Shown: in pieces, positions 1 through 37,666 of the stretch
How positions within the stretch are numbered: position 1 is the first letter of the stretch
Layout of the letters: the number at the start of each line of letters is the position of its first letter
Origin: a virus
Reading direction: 5' to 3' (one strand)
DNA length: 37,666 nucleotides
IMG/VR virus record: IMGVR_UViG_3300011254_000646
Coordinates: 1 to 37,666 of that record
Translations under genes and position numbers: made by a program
The notes under the pieces: model-generated
The model's input: only the letters and a program-made list of their open reading frames with translations
Databases searched by the model: none
Told to the model about the DNA's origin: nothing

Positions 1-21
1 TACAACGTTTCGGTTAAAAAT
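1..21. repeat. Left copy of 21-bp terminal repeat (circular overlap)
   Basis: Bases 1-21 are identical to 37646-37666. An exact overlap of this short length at the two ends of a contig is typical of an assembler cutting a circular or circularly permuted molecule, so 37645 should join to 1. It falls in the gap between two small genes, not at a recognisable packaging site. A true short direct terminal repeat is less likely but cannot be excluded. Confidence 0.85.
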
Positions 22-39
22 TGAAGCGATTAGATAACC
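2..39 (+). repeat. Intercassette repeat R3
   Basis: Third member of a family of 38-39 bp intergenic elements (others at 36884-36921 and 37338-37376). It begins ACAACG, has GCG near its middle-right (26-28) and ends TTAGATAACC. Across the circular junction it starts 3 bases after the stop of the 83-residue gene ending at 37643. The middle diverges more than the ends. Canonical integron attC core sites are not present. Confidence 0.6.
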
Positions 40-62
40 GGAACAGGTTCACCCGATAAAAC

Positions 63-133
63 AAGCAATAAGTAGCTAAACAATAAGGCCAACCTACTTA
101 TTCGCTTATATTTTTTAACCATTGTTGGCCTTA
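63..133 (+). other. Interleaved inverted repeats, pseudoknot-like leader
   Basis: Two inverted repeats interlock in the order a-b-a'-b'. Arm a (63-75, AAGCAATAAGTAG) pairs with 94-107 over 13 bp with one bulged C at 103. Arm b (84-93, TAAGGCCAAC) pairs perfectly with 124-133 over 10 bp. Arm b lies inside the loop of stem a while b' lies outside it, which is H-type pseudoknot geometry in RNA. Alternatively the two stems exclude each other, as in an attenuator switch. The element ends 11 bases before the start of the 90-residue gene at 145. Confidence 0.6.
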
Positions 134-144
134 GTTTTATTCAA

Positions 145-417
145 ATGTTCAAAGTAGAAGAAAAAAGAATTATTAACTACGTTCAATCTGCTGATGGTAA
201 TTCAGAGAGTGTTGTCATAGATTATAAATCAAAAAAAGTTCACGATTATCAAAAAGCATTTCGATTACTAGGAGAATCAAATTTTGATGAATTAAATAAA
301 TTTGGAAGCATCTGTTTAAATGGGTTTATTTATACAATCGTCGAGCCTTTTCAAACTATGCACTTTGCAAATGGTAAAATATTGCTGCCAAATAATTATG
401 AAGGAATAGACGGCTAA
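145..417 (+). CDS. Hypothetical 90-residue protein, orphan cassette gene
   Basis: I do not recognise this family. The product is small, soluble and slightly charged, with no signal peptide, membrane segment or cysteine pair. The ATG at 145 follows the interleaved inverted-repeat leader. The gene sits between copies of TAAGGCCAAC: plus orientation at 84-93, minus at 124-133, plus again at 419-428, two bases after the stop. It contains CpG at a far higher rate than the tail genes that follow and shares this with the two small genes on the other side of the circular junction. I infer it belongs to the same acquired segment between the terminase and the tail module. Function unknown; an accessory or anti-defence role would be a guess. 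Confidence 0.6.
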   Translation: MFKVEEKRIINYVQSADGNSESVVIDYKSKKVHDYQKAFRLLGESNFDELNKFGSICLNGFIYTIVEPFQTMHFANGKILLPNNYEGIDG

Positions 418-418
418 T

Positions 419-428
419 TAAGGCCAAC
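419..428 (+). repeat. Third copy of TAAGGCCAAC
   Basis: This 10-mer is identical to 84-93 and is the reverse complement of 124-133, so the 90-residue gene is bracketed by the motif. The sequence after it (TACTATTA) also resembles the bases after the first copy (CTACTTATT), which suggests that the whole leader element was partly duplicated. Confidence 0.55.
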
Positions 429-459
429 TACTATTAAACGTAATTCAAAAAATTGAACC

Positions 460-705
460 ATGAAAAAATTTGAGCAACTTACTGAATTTGAGCAATTAAG
501 CATCTCAAGACTCCAGTCAGCAGTCAGCTCCGGAAAGATTTCAAATGATGCTCTAGTGCAAATTATTGAACAATGTGGTTCATTTCTTAATCTCAAGACA
601 ATTCCGGCATATGCAAATGAATCAGGTATGAGTTACAATGGAGTCAAAAAATTCAGAGAAATAAAAGAAATATTTGGAGTGAAATTTGTCATTGATAATG
701 AGTAA
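460..705 (+). CDS. Small helix-turn-helix-like protein (81 aa)
   Basis: Mostly helical, with the C-terminal stretch AYANESGMSYNGVKKF followed by FGVKFVIDNE. That pattern resembles the short HTH proteins of Bacteroidota phages and mobile elements, in which a recognition helix (SYNGVKK) is followed by a beta-hairpin ending in a VxDN motif. A DNA-binding role is inferred from this similarity only. Its CpG content is low, with both CpGs inside CCGG, so it belongs compositionally to the phage backbone and marks the right edge of the CpG-rich segment. It lies 10 bases before the methyltransferase gene. A regulator of the late tail operon is possible, but a small structural protein is not excluded. 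Confidence 0.5.
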   Translation: MKKFEQLTEFEQLSISRLQSAVSSGKISNDALVQIIEQCGSFLNLKTIPAYANESGMSYNGVKKFREIKEIFGVKFVIDNE

Positions 706-11303: not shown

Positions 11304-12195
11304 AATAACAGCTGAAAAATCAGCAAATCTTGATAAGATTCCAGCAGAGCTATTTGGGAAAATAGAGCAAGCACAAAGAGAAGCATTCAAGCAAATCACA
11401 AGACTGATGAATCAGCTAGAGCTTGATGCCAGTGGGAAAATATTGCTGTCAACAAAGAATCTTGCATTGATTGAGCAGATTGGTGGCACAGCCAATGATG
11501 TGCTCTTTGGTGGTACATATGTTGATGCAGTCAGAGACTTTTCAAACAGTCTTGTGAATCAATCAACTCTTGCTGCTGAATACATGACAACTGCATTTGG
11601 ATCATTCACAGACAAGCAAATATTTGAGCAAGTGCTGAGGCAATCACAGCTTGATGTCTTGGCTTTATTAGATGAGCAAGCTGTGAATCAAGCATTGATT
11701 GAGCCATTGAAATCAGCACTCAGAGACTCTGTGACTGGTCAAGCAAAGCTCACTGATGTGATTGCTCAAGTACAGCAAATTGTGGTGGGAAATGAAGCCA
11801 CTGAGAGCAATCTGTTGGGCAACAGAAAGACATTGGTGAAAGATGCATTTTCAGCATCAGACCGGAGATATCAGCAAACTATTGAATCAGAATATTCATT
11901 TGACTTTTACCGGTACAGTGGATCTTTGGTGACAGATTCAAGATGTTTTTGTGAAAAAAGAACTGGCAAATATTTCCACAGATTAGAGATTGAAAGTTGG
12001 GGCAACAAGCAGAATCTTGGAGAGTGCAAATCAGGAAATGGCTGGCAAGGAATGAAAAAAGGCACTAATTCAGCCAACATTTTCACTTATGTTGGAGGCT
12101 ATAATTGTGATCATATTCTTGCAGCTGTTCCAATTGAAAATGTTCCAAAATCAGCAATAACCAGAGCCAAAGGTCTTGGCTATATGCCAGAATAG
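11287..12195 (+). CDS. MuF-like minor head protein (302 aa)
   Basis: The N-terminal two thirds are helical. The C-terminal third has DSRCFCEKRTGKYFH (217-231) and a late YNCDHILAAVPIE motif, matching the C-terminal pattern of Mu gpF-type head morphogenesis proteins (a D-x-RC-x-C segment, then a C-x-H near the end). These proteins sit inside the capsid near the portal and are sometimes ejected. The start is GTG 11287, overlapping the portal stop by 17 bases; no suitable ATG lies nearby. The gene is followed by a -7-like box, so the glycosyltransferase block after it may have its own promoter. Confidence 0.72.
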   Translation: MPSLIEITAEKSANLDKIPAELFGKIEQAQREAFKQITRLMNQLELDASGKILLSTKNLALIEQIGGTANDVLFGGTYVDAVRDFSNSLVNQSTLAAEYMTTAFGSFTDKQIFEQVLRQSQLDVLALLDEQAVNQALIEPLKSALRDSVTGQAKLTDVIAQVQQIVVGNEATESNLLGNRKTLVKDAFSASDRRYQQTIESEYSFDFYRYSGSLVTDSRCFCEKRTGKYFHRLEIESWGNKQNLGECKSGNGWQGMKKGTNSANIFTYVGGYNCDHILAAVPIENVPKSAITRAKGLGYMPE

Positions 12196-12208
12196 TTTTG
12201 ATTTTATA

Positions 12209-12216
12209 TATATTTG
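12209..12216 (+). promoter_or_regulatory. Candidate Bacteroidota -7 box (TATATTTG)
   Basis: TATATTTG matches the Bacteroidota sigma -7 consensus TAnnTTTG and lies 20 bases before ATG 12237, in the only gap of this part of the operon. No TTTG at the usual -33 distance is clear. If used it would drive the glycosyltransferase/methyltransferase block separately. Confidence 0.4.
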
Positions 12217-12236
12217 CTATGTAAAACAAAACATTA

Positions 12237-12875
12237 ATGAGCAAGATTTGCTTTTCTTATCTTTTTGGGAATAAAGACAAATGGATTGAGCCAAATATCA
12301 ACAAGATCAATACTGATTGGCATTATGTTTTATTCACAGACCAGCCAATCAAATCTGACTTGTATCATGTTGTGAAATATCCAATTGATGAAACATCATC
12401 AAGGATTCATTCAAGAAAAATCAAAACATTTGGTGCAGACAATTTCTTTCAAGCAAATTTGACTCAAGTCTTTCACCATGATGCAAATATCATTGTGAAT
12501 TGTGATCTTGATGAATTACCGGAATTCATGGTGATGAAACATCCATTTCATTGGTGTGCATTCAAAGAAATTGAGCTGTGCAAGAAATTGAAAAAAGACA
12601 CTGTTGAAAATCTCAACAAAGCAAAAGCCAAGTTGCTTGATTATGAATGGAGAGAAAATGCTGGTCTTTTCGCAAATGGTTTGATGATGAGACCAAATAC
12701 ATTTGAAGTTAATTCTCTTTCACATGATTGGTGGAATCATGTGAAAAATTTCAGTGTCAGAGATCAGATATTTTTGCCATATCTATTGAATAAACATAAT
12801 TTGAAACCAGCAGTCATTGAATGGGAGAGTCTGATTGGCTCAAAGTTTTTGATGCATAATCACTTGACAAAATGA
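12237..12875 (+). CDS. Glycosyltransferase, DUF616/TOD1-like (212 aa)
   Basis: Resembles the DUF616 (TOD1/MUCI70-like) glycosyltransferase group: an N-terminal YVLFTDQP strand, a metal-binding NCDLDELPEF motif (DLD at 90-92), a WW pair (165-166) and SVRDQIFLPYL (RDQ 175-177), all in the order expected. No membrane segment. The start ATG is 20 bases after a TATATTTG box and the stop overlaps the next methyltransferase by ATGA. It is the first gene of a seven-gene block whose members are nearly all sugar or methyl transferases, so it probably adds a sugar to a virion protein or builds a small glycan. Donor unknown. Confidence 0.7.
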   Translation: MSKICFSYLFGNKDKWIEPNINKINTDWHYVLFTDQPIKSDLYHVVKYPIDETSSRIHSRKIKTFGADNFFQANLTQVFHHDANIIVNCDLDELPEFMVMKHPFHWCAFKEIELCKKLKKDTVENLNKAKAKLLDYEWRENAGLFANGLMMRPNTFEVNSLSHDWWNHVKNFSVRDQIFLPYLLNKHNLKPAVIEWESLIGSKFLMHNHLTK

Positions 12876-13480
12876 AAAGATGGCAAATTATCAACCATTA
12901 TTTGAAAACTAGGTTTTCACATAAAACAGCAAAATATCTTGAAATAGGTATTCATCAAGGGGAAAACTGGTTGAAAATCAATGCTCAAGAAATGACTGGA
13001 GTTGATCCAAAGCCAATATTCAAATCATCCAATATTCTTGAGATGACTAGTGATGATTTCTTTGCTCAAAATAAAGATACTTTTGATTTGATTTTCATTG
13101 ATGGTTTACATCATCAAGATCAAGTTGCAAGAGATTTTTGGAATTCATTTCAATACTTGAATCCTGATGGCATCATCATCTTGCATGATTGCGCTCCAAA
13201 TGTGTATTTTGAAACTATTGTTCCAAGACCAAAGCCACATGGCAGATGGAATGGTGATGGATATAAAGCATGGATCAATATTAGATGGTCATTACCAAAT
13301 AGCACTTTCACAATAATGACAGATGAAGGTCTTGGAATATATGACTCAAGAGAAAGAGTCAAAGAAAACACAAGAATGGTGAAAAGTGATGTCATTGATG
13401 TGACTTGGGATGGTTATAAAAACAACAGATCTAAATGGCTGAATGAAATTTCTCTTGATGCATTCAAAGCACTGACATGA
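12872..13480 (+). CDS. Methyltransf_24-like SAM methyltransferase (202 aa)
   Basis: Motif I is YLEIGIHQG (22-30); motif IV is FDLIFIDGLHHQDQV (71-85), the D-G-x-H-x pattern of the Methyltransf_24 group; HDCAP follows at 105-109. A long loop with HGRWNGDGYKAW (about 124-135) is typical of members found in polysaccharide loci that O-methylate sugars. It sits between two glycosyltransferase-like genes with ATGA overlaps on both sides. I infer sugar O-methylation; protein or small-molecule methylation is possible. Confidence 0.8.
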   Translation: MKRWQIINHYLKTRFSHKTAKYLEIGIHQGENWLKINAQEMTGVDPKPIFKSSNILEMTSDDFFAQNKDTFDLIFIDGLHHQDQVARDFWNSFQYLNPDGIIILHDCAPNVYFETIVPRPKPHGRWNGDGYKAWINIRWSLPNSTFTIMTDEGLGIYDSRERVKENTRMVKSDVIDVTWDGYKNNRSKWLNEISLDAFKALT

Positions 13481-29493: not shown

Positions 29494-31776
29494 ATGTTGA
29501 AGTATAAAATTAAAGACTGCGAGAGTCTTATCGGGGATGGATTCTCATTGGTAGTGGCGGACAAAAACAAAAAGCCACTTTGGTCAAATTGGCAAAATAC
29601 AAGCAAAACATTCTCATCTTTTCGTAATTATTACAAAAAAGACAATGCTGAAATTACTGGAATTGTCTGTGATGGCAACATTGAATGCATTGATGTTGAT
29701 CTGAAAATATTGCCGGACTCGAAAAGACCAGCAAAAATGAAAGAGCTAATCAAGTTCTTTTCTGATAATATTGATGATTTTGCTCTGAAATTCTTTGTGC
29801 AAAAAACTCCATCAAATGGATTCCATATCATTTACAAGACAGCTGTTGCTGAGGGCAATAAAAAGATTGCTTTTGTTGAAACATCAACAGACAAGTTTGA
29901 ATGTTTGATTGAGACTCGTGGCACTGGTGGATATTTTGGTATTTACAAAGACCTTGAAATCATTGGCTCTGCAAGGAGAATCAAAACAATTTCTGATGAT
30001 GACAGAAACATCTTGCTCCATTGCTGTGAATCACTCAATGAAAAGATTGACATTCCATCAGTGCCAAAGAGCATTGTCAAAGAGCTGAAAACAAAAGAAA
30101 ACCAAATAATGTCTTGGCAAGATTATGATGCAAAGACAGATGTTTTTGATGTTGTGTCAGGTCATTTCAGAATGGCTGGCAAGACTCCAAAAGGACTCCA
30201 GATCAAAAGGATTGGCGGAAACAAAGGAACATCTCATTCTGGCTACATTTACACAGATAGAAATATCATGTATCTGTTTTCAGCAAATTCAATATTCCCA
30301 GCAGAGCAAGGTCTTTCACCATCTGCTTGCTTGGCATATAGAGATTTTAATGGTGATTTTGGCGATTGTGCAAAATGGCTGTATTCTCAAGGATTTGGTG
30401 AAAGAGTAGAAAAGAAAGAAAGCAAGAAAATAAAACTTGAGACATCTCCGGAAACTCCATCATCAGGACAATTTCCAATTCATGTGTTTCCTGATTGGCT
30501 CAAAAATTACATCATAGAAATCCATAACTGCACTGGATTTCCAATTGATTTTCTCTGTGCATCATTTATTTTCACTTTCTCTGTTGTTTGTGGCTGTACA
30601 TATGGTTTGCCAAAGAGAACTGGATCACTTGAGTTTCCAATTATTTGGATGTGTTTGGTGGCAAAAGCTGGTAATTTTAAAAGCCCAGCCATGAGTGAGA
30701 TGATAAAGCCGCTGAGAGTCTTAAATTCTCAAATGCATAGTGACTATAACCAAGAGCTGTTAAACTTCAAGAGAGCGCAAGAAAACGCCAAGAAAGGGCA
30801 ACAAGTGACTGATGCTCCACCAAGAAAACAGATTGCTGTTGTTGATGATGTAACTTTTGAGGCTTTGATCGATATTCACCAAAACAACAGACAAGGCATG
30901 GGCTATGTGAAAGATGAGCTTGCCGGCATGATTTCACAATTCAGCAAATATTCTGGAGCTGGATCTGATGTTTCTCAATGGCTCAGTCTTTTCAATGGTG
31001 ATTCAGTAACTCTTGAGAGAAAGCAAGCAAAATCAGCTTTCCTTGATCAGTCATTTGTTTCTTTGATTGGTGGAGTGCAGCCAGAAGTGATTCATACAAT
31101 CATAACCTCAGCAAACAAAGGAAATGGCTTTGTTGATAGAATGTTATTTGTCAGCAATTCAGATCCAGTGCCTCCATTAACCAAAAAGAAAGTCTTGCCA
31201 CATCATAAAAATGAATACATCAAAAAGATGTCAGCAGCATATGCTCAGACAAGAGCCATCTCTCCAAATCAATCATTGATTCTGACTCAGAAAGCTGATG
31301 ATAAGCTGATTGAAATTATCAATGAGCTGAGGTCTTTTCAGAATGACAACAACAAAGCATCAACAGCTGGAATGAATGCCAAATTGCAAACGTATTTGCA
31401 CAGATTCACTGTGCTGTGTCATTTGATGACAGAGCTGTTGGAAGGGAGTTTGAATTCACTTTCTGTTGATGTCACTGAGCAGTCTGTGATCAATGCTCAC
31501 GAGCTTGTTAAATTCTTTGCATCAACTGGAGAATATGTCAGAGAAAAGCAAGCAATTGATTCCGGTAAAATGAGATTTTATGAATCACTTAATAGTCAAG
31601 GTTTATTCAATAGAGCAGAGCAAGCTGTTGCATTATTCAAGAAATTCAATGGTCAGATAACATTCCAAGAGATTGCTGAAATGGTTGGCTATTCCGGCAA
31701 AGCAGCAGCATATAATGCCATTAAAAATGATGATGAATGCCAAGTGATGATGAATGAACAAAAAAACGCTAAGTGA
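29494..31776 (+). CDS. Primase-polymerase / DUF3987 helicase-like protein (760 aa)
   Basis: The N-terminal 120 residues are a PrimPol (AEP) domain: IECIDVDL (acidic 67 and 69) and SNGFHIIY (H111). A second module runs about 215-305 (FRMAGKTPKGLQIKRI, YTDRNIMYLFS, DFNGDFGDCAKWLYSQGFG), as in phage primases. Residues about 330-590 are a DUF3987 helicase-like domain, with VKDELAGMI (472-480) as motif II. The expected Walker A is degenerate: VAKAGNFKSPAM (389-400) lacks the usual GPPGxGKS. With no polymerase in the genome it probably primes for host Pol III. Its last four codons and stop are part of the 17-bp repeat that brackets the methyltransferase gene. Confidence 0.88.
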   Translation: MLKYKIKDCESLIGDGFSLVVADKNKKPLWSNWQNTSKTFSSFRNYYKKDNAEITGIVCDGNIECIDVDLKILPDSKRPAKMKELIKFFSDNIDDFALKFFVQKTPSNGFHIIYKTAVAEGNKKIAFVETSTDKFECLIETRGTGGYFGIYKDLEIIGSARRIKTISDDDRNILLHCCESLNEKIDIPSVPKSIVKELKTKENQIMSWQDYDAKTDVFDVVSGHFRMAGKTPKGLQIKRIGGNKGTSHSGYIYTDRNIMYLFSANSIFPAEQGLSPSACLAYRDFNGDFGDCAKWLYSQGFGERVEKKESKKIKLETSPETPSSGQFPIHVFPDWLKNYIIEIHNCTGFPIDFLCASFIFTFSVVCGCTYGLPKRTGSLEFPIIWMCLVAKAGNFKSPAMSEMIKPLRVLNSQMHSDYNQELLNFKRAQENAKKGQQVTDAPPRKQIAVVDDVTFEALIDIHQNNRQGMGYVKDELAGMISQFSKYSGAGSDVSQWLSLFNGDSVTLERKQAKSAFLDQSFVSLIGGVQPEVIHTIITSANKGNGFVDRMLFVSNSDPVPPLTKKKVLPHHKNEYIKKMSAAYAQTRAISPNQSLILTQKADDKLIEIINELRSFQNDNNKASTAGMNAKLQTYLHRFTVLCHLMTELLEGSLNSLSVDVTEQSVINAHELVKFFASTGEYVREKQAIDSGKMRFYESLNSQGLFNRAEQAVALFKKFNGQITFQEIAEMVGYSGKAAAYNAIKNDDECQVMMNEQKNAK

Positions 31777-31777
31777 T
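31761..31777 (+). repeat. 17-bp direct repeat, left copy
   Basis: AAAAAACGCTAAGTGAT, identical to 32825-32841. It includes the last codons and stop of the primase gene and runs into the methyltransferase start (ATG 31776). The repeated unit is 1,064 bp and contains the whole methyltransferase gene. Confidence 0.85.
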
Positions 31778-32840
31778 GCAAACGAAAAAAGGAATGAATG
31801 TGCTTTCTCTTTTTAATGGGATGTCCACTGGACAAAAAGCATTGGAAAATGTTGGTGTGAAAATTGGAAATTATTTCAGCAGTGAAATAAAGCCAGCAGC
31901 CATCAAATTGACACAATTTCACAATCCTGAGACAATTCAACTTGGAGACATTATGAATTGGAAAGAATGGGATATTGATTGGCAAAGCATTGATTTAGTA
32001 TTGAGTGGCTCACCATGTCAGGACTTGAGCATTGCTGGAAAAAGAGCTGGAATCAATGGAAAAAGGAGTTCTTTGTTTTGGGTGTTTATTGACATTTATA
32101 ACCATATAAAAGTCAAGAATCCAAATGTTTTGTTTTTTCAAGAAAATGTCGGATCTGCACCAAAGAAAGACATTGGCATTATGAGCAGAGCATTGGGTGT
32201 TTATCCAGTCAGATTCAATTCAAGTCTTGTGACTGCACAGCTGAGGGATCGATATTATTGGACAAACATCAAAGTGAAAGAGTTTGGTATGTTTGGAGAT
32301 TTGGTTGTTGATATTCCACCACCAAAAGACCGGAAGGTAATGTTTAAAGATATTATTGAAAATGGTGTAACGGATAGAGAAAAAAGCACTTGTGTTTTGG
32401 AAGGTTATGGAAGAAATAATTTTAAAAACAATGACAGCAAAAAAGCTCAAAAATATTTAAAAAGTAGGGATGCAAAAGGGATGTGTCCATTGGTTTACAT
32501 AGAAAACGATGAAGTCAGAGTTGCAGCCAATACTGTCAAAGGGTATGATGTAGCAACTGAAGATGATTGCATCAATTTAAGTTTTCCGAAATCAAAAACA
32601 CGACGTGCGCGAGTGACAAAAGGAAAGTCACCATGCTTGTTAGAAGGAGACGAAAAGCTCTATACTTTAAAGGATTTCAAAGTCAGGACATTGACTAAAA
32701 CAGAGCTTTGTAGACTGCAAGGATTTCCAGATGACTATTGTGAAATATTGTCAAGGAATCAAGCTGCATCATTGCTGGGTGATGGATGGACATTGCCAAT
32801 GATAGAACATTTTTTTAAATACCTAAAAAACGCTAAGTGA
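31776..32840 (+). CDS. DNA (cytosine-5) methyltransferase (354 aa)
   Basis: Methylates cytosine at C5 in a specific site. Motif I VLSLFNGMSTGQ (9-20), motif IV GSPCQDLS with the catalytic Cys (78-85), motif VI FQENVG (121-126), motif VIII QLRDRYYWTNI (155-165), target-recognition region about 180-295, then RTLTKTELCRLQGFPDDYCE (304-323) and ASLLGDGWTLP (331-341), motifs IX-X. It resembles stand-alone phage enzymes of the Dnmt3-like/DCM group. No partner restriction enzyme is adjacent; the nearest nuclease is the VRR-NUC at 33215. Likely protects phage DNA from host restriction. The target-recognition region has clustered CpG (for example 32600-32613). ATG 31776 preferred over GTG 31773. Confidence 0.93.
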   Translation: MQTKKGMNVLSLFNGMSTGQKALENVGVKIGNYFSSEIKPAAIKLTQFHNPETIQLGDIMNWKEWDIDWQSIDLVLSGSPCQDLSIAGKRAGINGKRSSLFWVFIDIYNHIKVKNPNVLFFQENVGSAPKKDIGIMSRALGVYPVRFNSSLVTAQLRDRYYWTNIKVKEFGMFGDLVVDIPPPKDRKVMFKDIIENGVTDREKSTCVLEGYGRNNFKNNDSKKAQKYLKSRDAKGMCPLVYIENDEVRVAANTVKGYDVATEDDCINLSFPKSKTRRARVTKGKSPCLLEGDEKLYTLKDFKVRTLTKTELCRLQGFPDDYCEILSRNQAASLLGDGWTLPMIEHFFKYLKNAK

Positions 32841-35176: not shown

Positions 35177-35561
35177 ACTAAAAAAAAGAGTTAGGTCAAA
35201 GAGACCATCAAAAGAAAAGATGATTGAAGCCATTCACAAGAATGGTGGCAATGTCAAAAAGATTTCACAATCATTGAAAATTGCATATCAGTCAGTTTAT
35301 ACTTTCTCCAGAGATTATGACATCAAGCATGAATTTCAAATTGCAAGAGATATGTTGCTGGATGATGCTGAATCTGCATTGCATGAAAGAGCAACAAAAG
35401 GGAAATCAGATGCTTGTCTCATTTTCTTATTGAAAACAAAAGGTCAATCTCGCGGATATATTGAAAGACATCAAGTTGATATGACTGTTGCTCCACCAAC
35501 ATCTGTGAATATCATCTCTGTTGCTGCACAAGATATTGCCGGAGATATTAAGCATGAGTGA
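35169..35561 (+). CDS. terS: Terminase small subunit (130 aa)
   Basis: DNA-recognition subunit of the packaging motor. N-terminal HTH-like region: KRPSKEKMIEAIHKNGGNVKKISQ, then SLKIAYQSVYTFSRDY (AxxGNVxxIAxxLxxxxxTVYxW type). A helical oligomerisation segment with the ALHERATKGKSDACLIFLLKTKG motif follows, typical of TerS of this group, and the C-terminal tail is disordered. It directly precedes and overlaps the large subunit by 8 bases, which fixes the assignment. Confidence 0.85.
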   Translation: MTELKKRVRSKRPSKEKMIEAIHKNGGNVKKISQSLKIAYQSVYTFSRDYDIKHEFQIARDMLLDDAESALHERATKGKSDACLIFLLKTKGQSRGYIERHQVDMTVAPPTSVNIISVAAQDIAGDIKHE

Positions 35562-36852
35562 AAATTCCATTGATTTCAAATTGCCGGAGAAGTTTATCAA
35601 ACTGCTCAATGATGATTCAAAATTCTTATTCGTTCTGGGTGGAGCTGGATCTGGAAAATCTGTCTTTGCATCATTCAAGCTGATTCTTAGATGTATCACT
35701 GAGCAGAATCACAGATTTGTTGCTGTCAGGAAAGTGGCTAAAACAATCAGAGAATCTGTTTTTAAAGAGTTACAAATGCGGATTTCAGAAATGAATCTGA
35801 CACAATTTTGGGAGATTAATAAAACAGAGATGAAATTGGTCTATAAACCAACTGGCTCTGAAATTATCACATATGGTCTTGATGATCCGGAAAAACTCAA
35901 GTCATTGGCAAAAATCACTGGTATTTGGATTGAGGAATTAGTGCCGGAAGTAGAGCAAGATGATTTTGATCAATTGGTTTTGAGATTGCGTGGTGAATCT
36001 CCATCATACAAGCAAATTATTTCAACTTTCAATCCAGTGGATGAAAGACATTGGGTTAAGAAAAGAATTGATTCTGAAAGAGCCAGTGATCAGGTCCATC
36101 ATTCAACAGTTTTGGACAATCCATTCATTGAGCAAGAATATATTGATGAAGTCAAAATGATGGCTGATTCAAATCCAAATTATTTCAGAATTTTTTATCA
36201 GGGAGAATGGGGTAGAGCAGATGCAAAATCTCCATATCTCTACAATTTTGATAGAGCAAAACATACAGCTCCGGTCAAACTTGATGATAGATTTCCAATC
36301 ATCTTTTCTTTTGATTTCAATGTTGATCCATTTGCTTGCATTGTTGCTCAGATATACAGAGATACATCCGGACATCATGTTCATGTCTTTGATGAAATCA
36401 CTCTATTTGATGGAGATGTTCACAAGATGTGTGACAGAATCAAATCAAAATATTCAATAGTGCAATTGTCCAGAGCATTTTACACTGGTGATGCAATGCA
36501 GCGGAAAAAAGAAATCACTCAACAGAATAATATTGATGCATGGCAAATGATAATGACACAGTTGAGAGTGAGTAAGAAAAGAATGGCTGTTCCAAAATCA
36601 AATCCAAGAGTGAGTGAAAACAGACATTTGATGAATTTTGTGTTGAGCCAGCATCCAGATGTGAAAATAAATGTTGAAAGATGTCCTCAGCTGGTGACTG
36701 ATTGTGATTATGTTGAGTCTGATGATGATGGTAATATTCTCAAGAAAAACAGACACAAAGAGAATCAGAGGGCTGATCATCTTGATTGCTTTCGCTATTT
36801 AATCAATGCTTTCATGTCAGATTTTGTTGTGAAACCAAAAAAATATATATAA
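35554..36852 (+). CDS. terL: Terminase large subunit (432 aa)
   Basis: Packaging ATPase and nuclease. Walker A GGAGSGKS (29-36), Walker B-like IWIEEL (124-129) and motif III ISTFNP (156-161). The RNase H-like nuclease has FSFDFNVDPF (D253), a central YTGDAMQRKKE motif and a final acidic HLDCFRYLI near residue 415. The order and the SFDFNVDPF motif match the Terminase_3/PBSX-type group. ATG 35554 overlaps the small subunit; the in-frame extension to 35521 lacks domain content. Nothing here tells headful from site-specific packaging. The small cassette genes begin after its stop. Confidence 0.93.
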   Translation: MSENSIDFKLPEKFIKLLNDDSKFLFVLGGAGSGKSVFASFKLILRCITEQNHRFVAVRKVAKTIRESVFKELQMRISEMNLTQFWEINKTEMKLVYKPTGSEIITYGLDDPEKLKSLAKITGIWIEELVPEVEQDDFDQLVLRLRGESPSYKQIISTFNPVDERHWVKKRIDSERASDQVHHSTVLDNPFIEQEYIDEVKMMADSNPNYFRIFYQGEWGRADAKSPYLYNFDRAKHTAPVKLDDRFPIIFSFDFNVDPFACIVAQIYRDTSGHHVHVFDEITLFDGDVHKMCDRIKSKYSIVQLSRAFYTGDAMQRKKEITQQNNIDAWQMIMTQLRVSKKRMAVPKSNPRVSENRHLMNFVLSQHPDVKINVERCPQLVTDCDYVESDDDGNILKKNRHKENQRADHLDCFRYLINAFMSDFVVKPKKYI

Positions 36853-36883
36853 AACTGAAAATTATATATATTTTTGAAGTAGC

Positions 36884-36921
36884 ACAACGGTGTTGGTATG
36901 CCAAGTTGCGATTAATTAACC
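36884..36921 (+). repeat. Intercassette repeat R1
   Basis: Begins ACAACGG, ends TTAATTAACC, with GCG at 36908-36910. It can fold as CAAC-(GGTG bulge)-TTGG, loop TATG, CCAA-GTTG, an imperfect hairpin with unpaired bases on one strand. 32 bases after the terminase stop and 16 before the 129-residue gene. A 12-base direct repeat (GAAAATTATATA) occurs just before it (36857) and just after it (36924). Confidence 0.65.
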
Positions 36922-36936
36922 TTGAAAATTATATAA

Positions 36937-37326
36937 ATGACATTTATACCACAAGACCCAAATATTGAAAAAAGTTGCTTAAATGCTTGCACAAAAGAAG
37001 CAATAGAAGCAGGAGTATGTAATTGCTTAAATAAAGTAAACATTAAGCAATTTGACATACCTGTTGTTGTAGTGAACCAAAACCCAAAACCTAATATTAT
37101 GAAATGGGCATTTGATAATTTAGCGATAGTAGAAGCGGTAAAGGCACTCTTTGATAACGACAGCGGAAAGATAGTTAGCAAGGAAGGGCAACGCATAATT
37201 GATGAAGATGGAGAAGAACTAAGAAAACTCCTAAAACCCAAATCGGTTTGCCAACACCCATTTGCAATGGTTAAGCAGATAACTAGAGAAGTTCATTGGT
37301 GCGGCAAATGTGATAAGTACATATAG
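36937..37326 (+). CDS. Cysteine-rich hypothetical cassette protein (129 aa)
   Basis: Not recognised. N-terminal cysteines (CLNACTKEAIEAGVCNCLN, residues 14-32) and a C-terminal set CQHPFAM...HWCGKCDKYI (about 103-129), resembling a zinc-ribbon or treble-clef end. The middle is helical with an acidic VSKEGQRIIDEDGEEL stretch. First cassette gene after terL. Codon use differs from the backbone (CGN and NCG codons present). A similar C-terminal C-H...WCGKC pattern occurs in small Bacteroidota phage proteins that I cannot name. Confidence 0.6.
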   Translation: MTFIPQDPNIEKSCLNACTKEAIEAGVCNCLNKVNIKQFDIPVVVVNQNPKPNIMKWAFDNLAIVEAVKALFDNDSGKIVSKEGQRIIDEDGEELRKLLKPKSVCQHPFAMVKQITREVHWCGKCDKYI

Positions 37327-37337
37327 CAAACTGCACT

Positions 37338-37376
37338 ACAACGTTTTGCAGCTATGCTTTGCGCTTTTAATTAACC
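37338..37376 (+). repeat. Intercassette repeat R2
   Basis: Begins ACAACGT, has GCG at 37361-37363 and ends TTAATTAACC, 11 bases after the stop of the 129-residue gene and 15 bases before the next start. Same edges and length as R1 and R3, with a middle sequence (TTTTGCAGCTATGC) not shared. The layout of element-gene-element is what a cassette array looks like. Confidence 0.65.
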
Positions 37377-37391
37377 TAAACACTAAATAGA

Positions 37392-37643
37392 ATGCAGAAA
37401 CTTATAAGAACTGCCGATTTACGAAAGGCACTTGACAAATACAATAGAGAAGAAATAAGTTACGGGAAAATGGTGGAAATGTTGAATGTTGCCGCTAATA
37501 AAGCGTTAAGCATAGGTGATGTTGTACAGCAGCGCGAACTGTTGATTGCTTATGAGATAGCGATGCACTCATGCTTAGAATCTGAACCGTTTAGAACGAA
37601 GTATGCTGAAAAGGTTGTTGATGACTTTATAAGCAAGCAATAG
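37392..37643 (+). CDS. Hypothetical cassette protein (83 aa)
   Basis: Helical throughout (LRKALDKYNREEISYGKMVEML, AANKALSIGDVVQQRELL), acidic near the end, without cysteine pairs or membrane segments. No family recognised. Two bases after its stop the 21-bp overlap begins, so on the circle it is followed by R3 and the interleaved leader of the 90-residue gene at 145. Confidence 0.6.
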   Translation: MQKLIRTADLRKALDKYNREEISYGKMVEMLNVAANKALSIGDVVQQRELLIAYEIAMHSCLESEPFRTKYAEKVVDDFISKQ

Positions 37644-37645
37644 TG

Positions 37646-37666
37646 TACAACGTTTCGGTTAAAAAT
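37646..37666. repeat. Right copy of 21-bp terminal repeat (circular overlap)
   Basis: Exact copy of bases 1-21, the other side of the circular overlap. It contains the start of repeat R3, which is completed at 2-39 after circular joining. Confidence 0.85.

Follow-up and report, generated by a model that had tools for sequence, protein, structure and literature searches.

A probable integron-type cassette array at a variable site beside terL in a phage genome

Phages are known to carry CALINs, and the closest described case is that of the Polaribacter phage P12002L (KR136259; Qi et al. 2023, PMC9892861), a lytic Bacteroidota phage that carries cassettes without an integrase; of its attC sites assayed with IntI1, one recombined. 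A survey reported few integrons in Bacteroidetes (PMC9024848). The other systems to which the locus described here can be compared are sedentary chromosomal integrons, with tandem single-gene cassettes, R''/R' cores carrying AAC/GTT and sites that fold as imperfect hairpins with extrahelical bases; the XerA-like recombinases (NCBIfam NF040815, PDB 5hxy/4a8e); and the arrays of Persicobacter plasmids (NZ_AP025294, CP012867), which hold series of orphan genes.

We analyzed a window consisting of one whole virus contig of 37,666 bp, in which a block of about 1.2 kb is, with good probability, an integron-type cassette array carried by the phage. The block and its counterparts in related phages share with the P12002L CALIN the presence of cassettes in a phage lacking an integrase, the occurrence of methyltransferase cassettes, ORFs that run opposite to the attC polarity, and a site, found in the related contig L039, that is 90% identical between the two. 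The sites in the window differ from those of P12002L in being shorter (38-48 nt) and in missing the greater part of the R'' half, and the locus adjoins terL and shows an allelic series of contents at one site.

A block of foreign composition at a variable site

The two ends of the contig overlap by 21 bp (TACAACGTTTCGGTTAAAAAT; positions 1-21 equal 37646-37666), and the record was therefore read as a circle. The block then lies between the terL stop codon (36852) and an 81-aa phage gene (460) and contains three small orphan genes. Its features and neighbours are as follows.

35521..36852, plus strand: terL, left neighbour (Pfam Terminase_3, 2.6e-49)
36853..37666, no strand: foreign cassette block, part 1 (CpG o/e 0.97, with 0.17 outside it; relatives lack it or have other genes in its place), continuing across the record ends into 1-455
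36937..37326, plus strand: cassette gene 1, 129 aa, orphan, with a C-terminal CxHP...CxxC zinc-ribbon-like motif
37392..37643, plus strand: cassette gene 2, 83 aa, orphan, with a weak PHROG 30067 match (E = 0.002)
1..455, no strand: foreign cassette block, part 2, on the same basis as part 1; homology to relatives resumes at about 425-460
145..417, plus strand: cassette gene 3, 90 aa, orphan according to sequence searches
460..705, plus strand: 81-aa phage gene, right neighbour, conserved in the relatives L036/L037

The 1217-bp block holds 34 CpG (o/e 0.96-0.97), against 190 in the remaining 36.4 kb (o/e 0.17), and this contrast identifies the block as foreign. The shift in composition coincides with gene boundaries at both edges of the block. 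A first-pass annotation of the sequence had already described genes and spacers rich in CpG relative to the backbone, which these values bear out. It had placed the block at 36884-37645, where there is indeed a block, but the true extent reaches about 455 and includes a fourth site at 85-132. Its further statement that no CpG falls in CCGG is incorrect for the whole block, which has one such CpG, and may be right only for the narrower span. The 21-bp overlap falls wholly within R3, one of three intergenic elements (R1-R3) treated below. Such a position would be expected if the assembly had broken at a repeated cassette site, and it is possible that additional cassettes are hidden between the record ends.

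The backbone itself (455-36852) is strongly CpG-depleted, with an o/e of 0.17 and values of 0.08-0.10 in relatives. In the window, 59 of the 190 backbone CpG lie within CCGG, compared with 0 of 55 in the relative L046; a C5 methyltransferase gene is present in the phage backbone at 31773-32840.

The view that the cassette genes are orphans was confirmed, as they had no clear match in phages, Pfam, plasmids (gene 1) or sampled Bacteroidota. Searches with tblastn and with peptides from genes 1-3 and the portal were empty, and no homologues of genes 1 or 2 were present in 80 attC-bearing genomes.

A conserved part of terL, used as query, recovered related phages at 89-91% identity over its length; evenly spaced terL peptides had missed them. 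Nucleotide identity to these relatives is about 77% in terL and about 67-78% along the genomes, which are collinear with the window. We found that gene content differs among them exactly at the junction of terL and the 81-aa gene. In L035-L038, four contigs that are nearly identical and were therefore counted once, the site is filled by a different pair of genes (66 and 77 aa), and in L039 by a gene of 156 aa together with one resembling a C5 methyltransferase (Pfam PF00145). No cassettes are present in L034 and L043/L046; most of the 81-aa gene is also missing from these contigs (L034 1348-1420; L043 960-1030), so they represent deletion alleles and not pristine empty sites. Across the phage group, the site thus occurs in three different filled states and one deletion state.

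L037 and L039 are identical after terL up to ATATATTTG and divergent beyond it, and a block comparable to that of the window is internal to the contig in L037 and extends to the contig end in L039. The inserted parts of these relatives have CpG o/e values of 0.71-0.81 against 0.08-0.10 in their backbones (0.81 vs 0.10 and 0.71 vs 0.08). The variable gene content that the first-pass annotation had asked for in related phages is therefore present, with L035-L038, L039 and L034/L043 differing from one another.

attC-like sites and a tyrosine recombinase in Flavobacteriaceae

The spacer between the two genes of L039, TGCCTACAACGGTTTGGCTAAACGGTCGTTTTAATGCCGTTTTAGCCATTGTTAGGCACA, forms a bulged attC-like hairpin (z = -4.2 (minus strand)/-3.5) and is the site related to P12002L, with its 90% identity extending over 71 nt of a spacer of that phage (E = 2e-16). 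Matches to it were found in 98 of 400 Flavobacteriaceae genomes. Fourteen such sites align as a 54-nt hairpin in which five pairs show double compensatory changes. A covariance model of this 54-nt hairpin, with the L039 site in its training set, detected a further P12002L site from outside that set (48 bits) and one site in the Nonlabens phage P12024S (37 bits).

These sites form arrays between small genes in Flavobacteriaceae chromosomes and on a Persicobacter plasmid, and a description of such arrays was not found in the open-licence literature searched. Native arrays have a CpG o/e of about 0.9-1.3, and their ORFs lie on the same strand as the adjacent attC in 107 cases and on the opposite strand in 7. 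Circular integron cassettes predict complementarity between R' and R'' within a cassette. Among native cassettes, the opening R' was complementary to the cassette's own closing R'' in 21 of 34, compared with 9 of 34 for the R''/R' of one physical site, and this within-cassette complementarity is a likeness to sedentary chromosomal integrons. The Persicobacter plasmid arrays have spacers of the form R'' AACAATG ... AACCGTTG R' in NZ_AP025294, but differ from the phage locus in their long sites (130-200 nt and longer) and in carrying ORFs in the attC sense. In most of the native cassettes shown (e.g. L069, L073, L087), AATT or ACATT lies shortly after the R' box.

A tyrosine recombinase of about 375-391 aa is encoded directly upstream of native arrays (L114 1096-2226, L112 13405-14580, L113 13368-14495); the copy in L111 has 371 aa and lies several kb from the array. 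Its best family is XerA/integron integrase-like (NF040815), and the integron-integrase model TIGR02249 matched it in two pieces and below the cut-off in 24 of 24 genomes. In the patch III region, this recombinase has about 25 residues where IntI4 (PDB 2a3v) has about 68, which indicates that the IntI additional domain is missing. Its catalytic domain aligns end to end with XerA-like recombinases, likewise without the IntI insertion, and it differs from them in an N-terminal extension of about 90 aa and in its place directly upstream of attC arrays. No relative of this enzyme is encoded in the window or in the related phages.

The recombinase gene is present in nearly every Flavobacteriaceae genome tested, so its presence or absence is uninformative about an association with arrays. 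In a further sample, attC sites were only moderately enriched downstream of the recombinase, on its strand: 9 such regions held 12 sites, whereas 10 control regions, counted on both strands, held 3. Many minus-strand copies lie close to the start of their contig, which puts their downstream side at an assembly break, as repeat arrays would cause. This recombinase would be the likely mover of the cassettes.

The phage sites might alternatively be remnants of a classical IntI-type CALIN rather than of a Flavobacteriaceae system with a XerA-like enzyme, an origin that we consider conceivable but rather unlikely. It would fit the existence of phage CALINs, the recombination of a P12002L site with IntI1 (PMC9892861) and the fact that the L039 site is a near copy of the P12002L site, but it is at odds with a recombinase beside the native arrays that lacks the IntI additional domain and with the few integrons reported in Bacteroidetes (PMC9024848). 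This alternative and the reading preferred here differ mainly in the acting enzyme, and the likelihoods that we attach to the alternatives are not exclusive of one another.

Probable degenerate or half attC sites within the block

The elements R1, R2 and R3 exist as first written, with R3 read across the record ends. They are listed here with the other sites of the block, together with their ranks and control frequencies from the weight matrix described below.

36884..36921, minus strand: R1, degenerate or half attC, R' box CGTTGTGC; rank 3/75,364; control frequency 3e-5
36912..36921, plus strand: leader TTAATTAACC, 15 nt before the gene 1 ATG
37338..37376, minus strand: R2, degenerate or half attC, R' box CGTTGTAG; rank 71/75,364; likeness to R1 p = 0.0035
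37367..37376, plus strand: leader TTAATTAACC, 15 nt before the gene 2 ATG
2..39, minus strand: R3, degenerate or half attC, R' box CGTTGTAC; rank 1/75,364; control frequency 5e-6; holds the 21-bp overlap
85..132, minus strand: attC-like site with a perfect 9-bp R''/R' and no clear L stem, AAGGCCAAC AATGG ... GTTGGCCTT; fold z = -3.5
420..428, minus strand: R' box belonging to the gene-3 cassette, GTTGGCCTTAATTA; complement of the R'' at 124-132; directly next to the phage flank

When compared pairwise against dinucleotide shuffles, R1 and R2 were alike (p = 0.0035), and R2/R3 (p = 0.08) and R1/R3 (p = 0.25) were less so. Sequence similarity alone is therefore convincing only for R1/R2, and the three-way similarity is weak. 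The first-pass annotation gave the three elements the common edges ACAACG and TTAnWTAACC. In the window, ACAACG is found only in R1, R2 and R3 and once inside a gene (22079), and TTAATTAACC only in R1 and R2. The imperfect hairpin predicted for R1 does exist, with CAAC/GTTG and TTGG/CCAA pairings and four extrahelical bases, although its stability is like that of shuffles (z = -0.9); the predicted hairpins of R2 and R3 are also no more stable than shuffles. The hairpin at 85-132, which was not listed in the first-pass annotation, has perfect 9-bp arms (AAGGCCAAC/GTTGGCCTT) and is more stable than shuffles (z = -3.5), and its AAC-AATGG equals the native R'' spacer.

When viral contigs, 85k genomes and 396 Bacteroidota genomes were scanned for the edge pattern ACAACG...TTAATTAACC, all matches were attributable to chance and most fell inside genes; in the 396 Bacteroidota genomes a reversed control pattern had as many matches as the R1/R2 edge pattern or more. 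No arrays were found by a search for the pattern GTTRGGC...TTANTTAACC.

Read on the minus strand, the ends of R1-R3 (...CACCGTTGTGC, ...AAACGTTGTAG and ...AAACGTTGTAC) resemble native R' halves (...ACCGTTGTGT, ...ACCGTTGTAA). A weight matrix was built from 46 native R' halves, with phage sites left out of training, and applied to 75,364 window positions. R3 ranked first, R1 third and R2 seventy-first, with scores reached in composition-normal control DNA at frequencies of 5e-6, 3e-5 and 2e-3, respectively. Conditioned on the hexamer CGTTGT, the values were 0.013 for R3 and 0.03 for R1, moderately above chance, and 0.41 for R2, which is at chance level and means that the R2 match adds little beyond the core. 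A homologous element elsewhere, the other point on which the first-pass annotation had made its reading depend, thus exists in that R1-R3 match one half of the Flavobacteriaceae attC-like sites.

The full 54-nt Flavobacteriaceae attC covariance model had no match in the block up to E = 10, at R1-R3 or at 85-132, and an R'' half was not recognizable in R1-R3. For these reasons, R1-R3 are best called degenerate or half attC sites. Complementarity of R' and R'' inside the block is perfect at 85-132 and between the ends of the gene-3 cassette, and no other pair in the window shows it. The minus-strand core boxes (CGTTGTGC, CGTTGTAG, CGTTGTAC and GTTGGCC) have the GTT of GTTRRRY and only partly its RRRY.

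The block had earlier been described as not canonical attC, with core sites missing. The first half of this description stands, as there is no full attC and the covariance model misses R1-R3, but a GTT core does exist, on the minus strand. The orientation in which cores had been sought, on the plus strand, was rejected. In comparison with sedentary chromosomal integrons, the core box here is GTTGTRN as often as GTTRRRY, the phage ORFs are antisense to attC, and the recombinase of the native arrays is without the IntI additional domain. A CALIN is defined by two or more attC within 4 kb and the lack of an integrase. The block has four sites within 1.2 kb, each missed by the full-site model, and no recombinase was found in the phage.

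All three ORFs of the window lie on the plus strand, co-directional with terL and opposite to the attC polarity. In the window, L039 and P12002L alike, the 5' ends of the ORFs adjoin the R'' side and the 3' ends the R' side, and in P12024S the attC found by the model and the small genes beside it are on opposite strands. The cassette-start motif, R' followed by AATT/ACATT, is found antisense, after the stop codon, for most phage cassette ORFs. Because attC polarity is minus and the ORFs are plus, each ORF probably needs its own start signal, such as TTAATTAACC 15 nt before the ATG, or late read-through. The TTAACC-N15-ATG spacing is constant before gene 1, gene 2 and the L039 methyltransferase gene, and this arrangement may be a start signal for the reversed ORFs. 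Next to native attC, the TTAACC leader hardly occurs (GGTTA in 2 of 128). ORFs whose expression fits late phage transcription could have been favoured by selection.

The leader also bears on an improbable explanation, in which the block would consist of ordinary morons acquired by illegitimate recombination and R1-R3 would serve as a common promoter or 5' leader (TTAATTAACC 15 nt ahead of the ATG) and not as recombination sites. Bacteroidota promoters have the form TTTG-N19..21-TAnnTTTG, which GTTG and TAACCTTG in R1 resemble. Together with the constant TTAACC-N15-ATG in R1, R2 and L039 and an R2 attC match that rests on a hexamer, this resemblance speaks for morons. Against them are the ACAACG ends of R1 and R3, which match native attC R' halves, the full attC at the same place in L039, the inverted 9-bp boxes that flank gene 3, and a turnover of gene content exactly at the site.

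That host cassette DNA was joined to the ends of the phage contig as an assembly artefact is very unlikely. The block does sit at both record ends, with the 21-bp overlap inside R3; however, composition shifts at a gene boundary on either side, the phage genes flanking the block are intact, and comparable blocks occupy the same site in other contigs, internally in L037 and up to the contig end in L039. Hairpin-mobilised elements (IS200/IS605-like, REP or MITE) are hardly credible, as there are short imperfect hairpins between the genes but no transposase was recognized in the block, the R1-R3 hairpins are not more stable than shuffles, and there are no copies beyond chance elsewhere in the phage, in viral contigs or in 85k genomes.

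Proposed origin and significance of the array

The reading of the locus as an integron-type cassette array, which the first-pass annotation had put forward, is thus favoured by the foreign composition of the block, by the turnover of content at the site and by elements that match native attC halves. We propose that the block is a small CALIN-like array without an integrase, in a phage probably infecting a Flavobacteriaceae-like host. The cassettes would derive from chromosomal arrays of the host with attC-like hairpin spacers, and they would have been put between terL and the next gene by a tyrosine recombinase of the host or, with lower probability, by illegitimate recombination, with different phage lineages retaining different cassettes at the terL gap. 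Judged from their sequence, R1-R3 and 85-132 would be inter-cassette attC sites, now degenerate or mostly reduced to the R' half. Host identity, the mover of the cassettes, their expression and their benefit are what we infer here; the methyltransferase cassette of L039 suggests an anti-restriction benefit.

More tentatively, Flavobacteriaceae may commonly carry integron-like arrays operated by a XerA-like enzyme that has no IntI domain, and phages could collect cassettes from these arrays at a fixed site, keeping ORFs that run against the attC polarity, with late transcription. If this is true, finders based on IntI would miss the enzyme. Phage CALINs were already known. As far as checked, four features are new or unreported: the degenerate state of the sites, the reversal of the ORFs, a variable site that is fixed beside terL, and a recombinase other than IntI by arrays of the donor type.

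A single phage group here provides a natural allelic series at one site, with donor-type composition still visible, so that cassette acquisition and loss can be followed. Cassette arrays occur in about one quarter of the sampled Flavobacteriaceae genomes, several of them beside a recombinase outside the IntI definition, and this makes the need for the IntI domain in integron-like shuffling directly testable.

Two further observations concern the native arrays. In L113, a gene in cassette position beside the recombinase (12155-13300) encodes a protein with some resemblance to class C beta-lactamase / D-aminopeptidase proteins, at NCBIfam scores far below the cut-offs. In Persicobacter psychrovividus plasmid pPP2 (NZ_AP025294; L063), a 40-kb stretch is largely cassette-like, with repeated spacers of 130 nt to over 300 nt.
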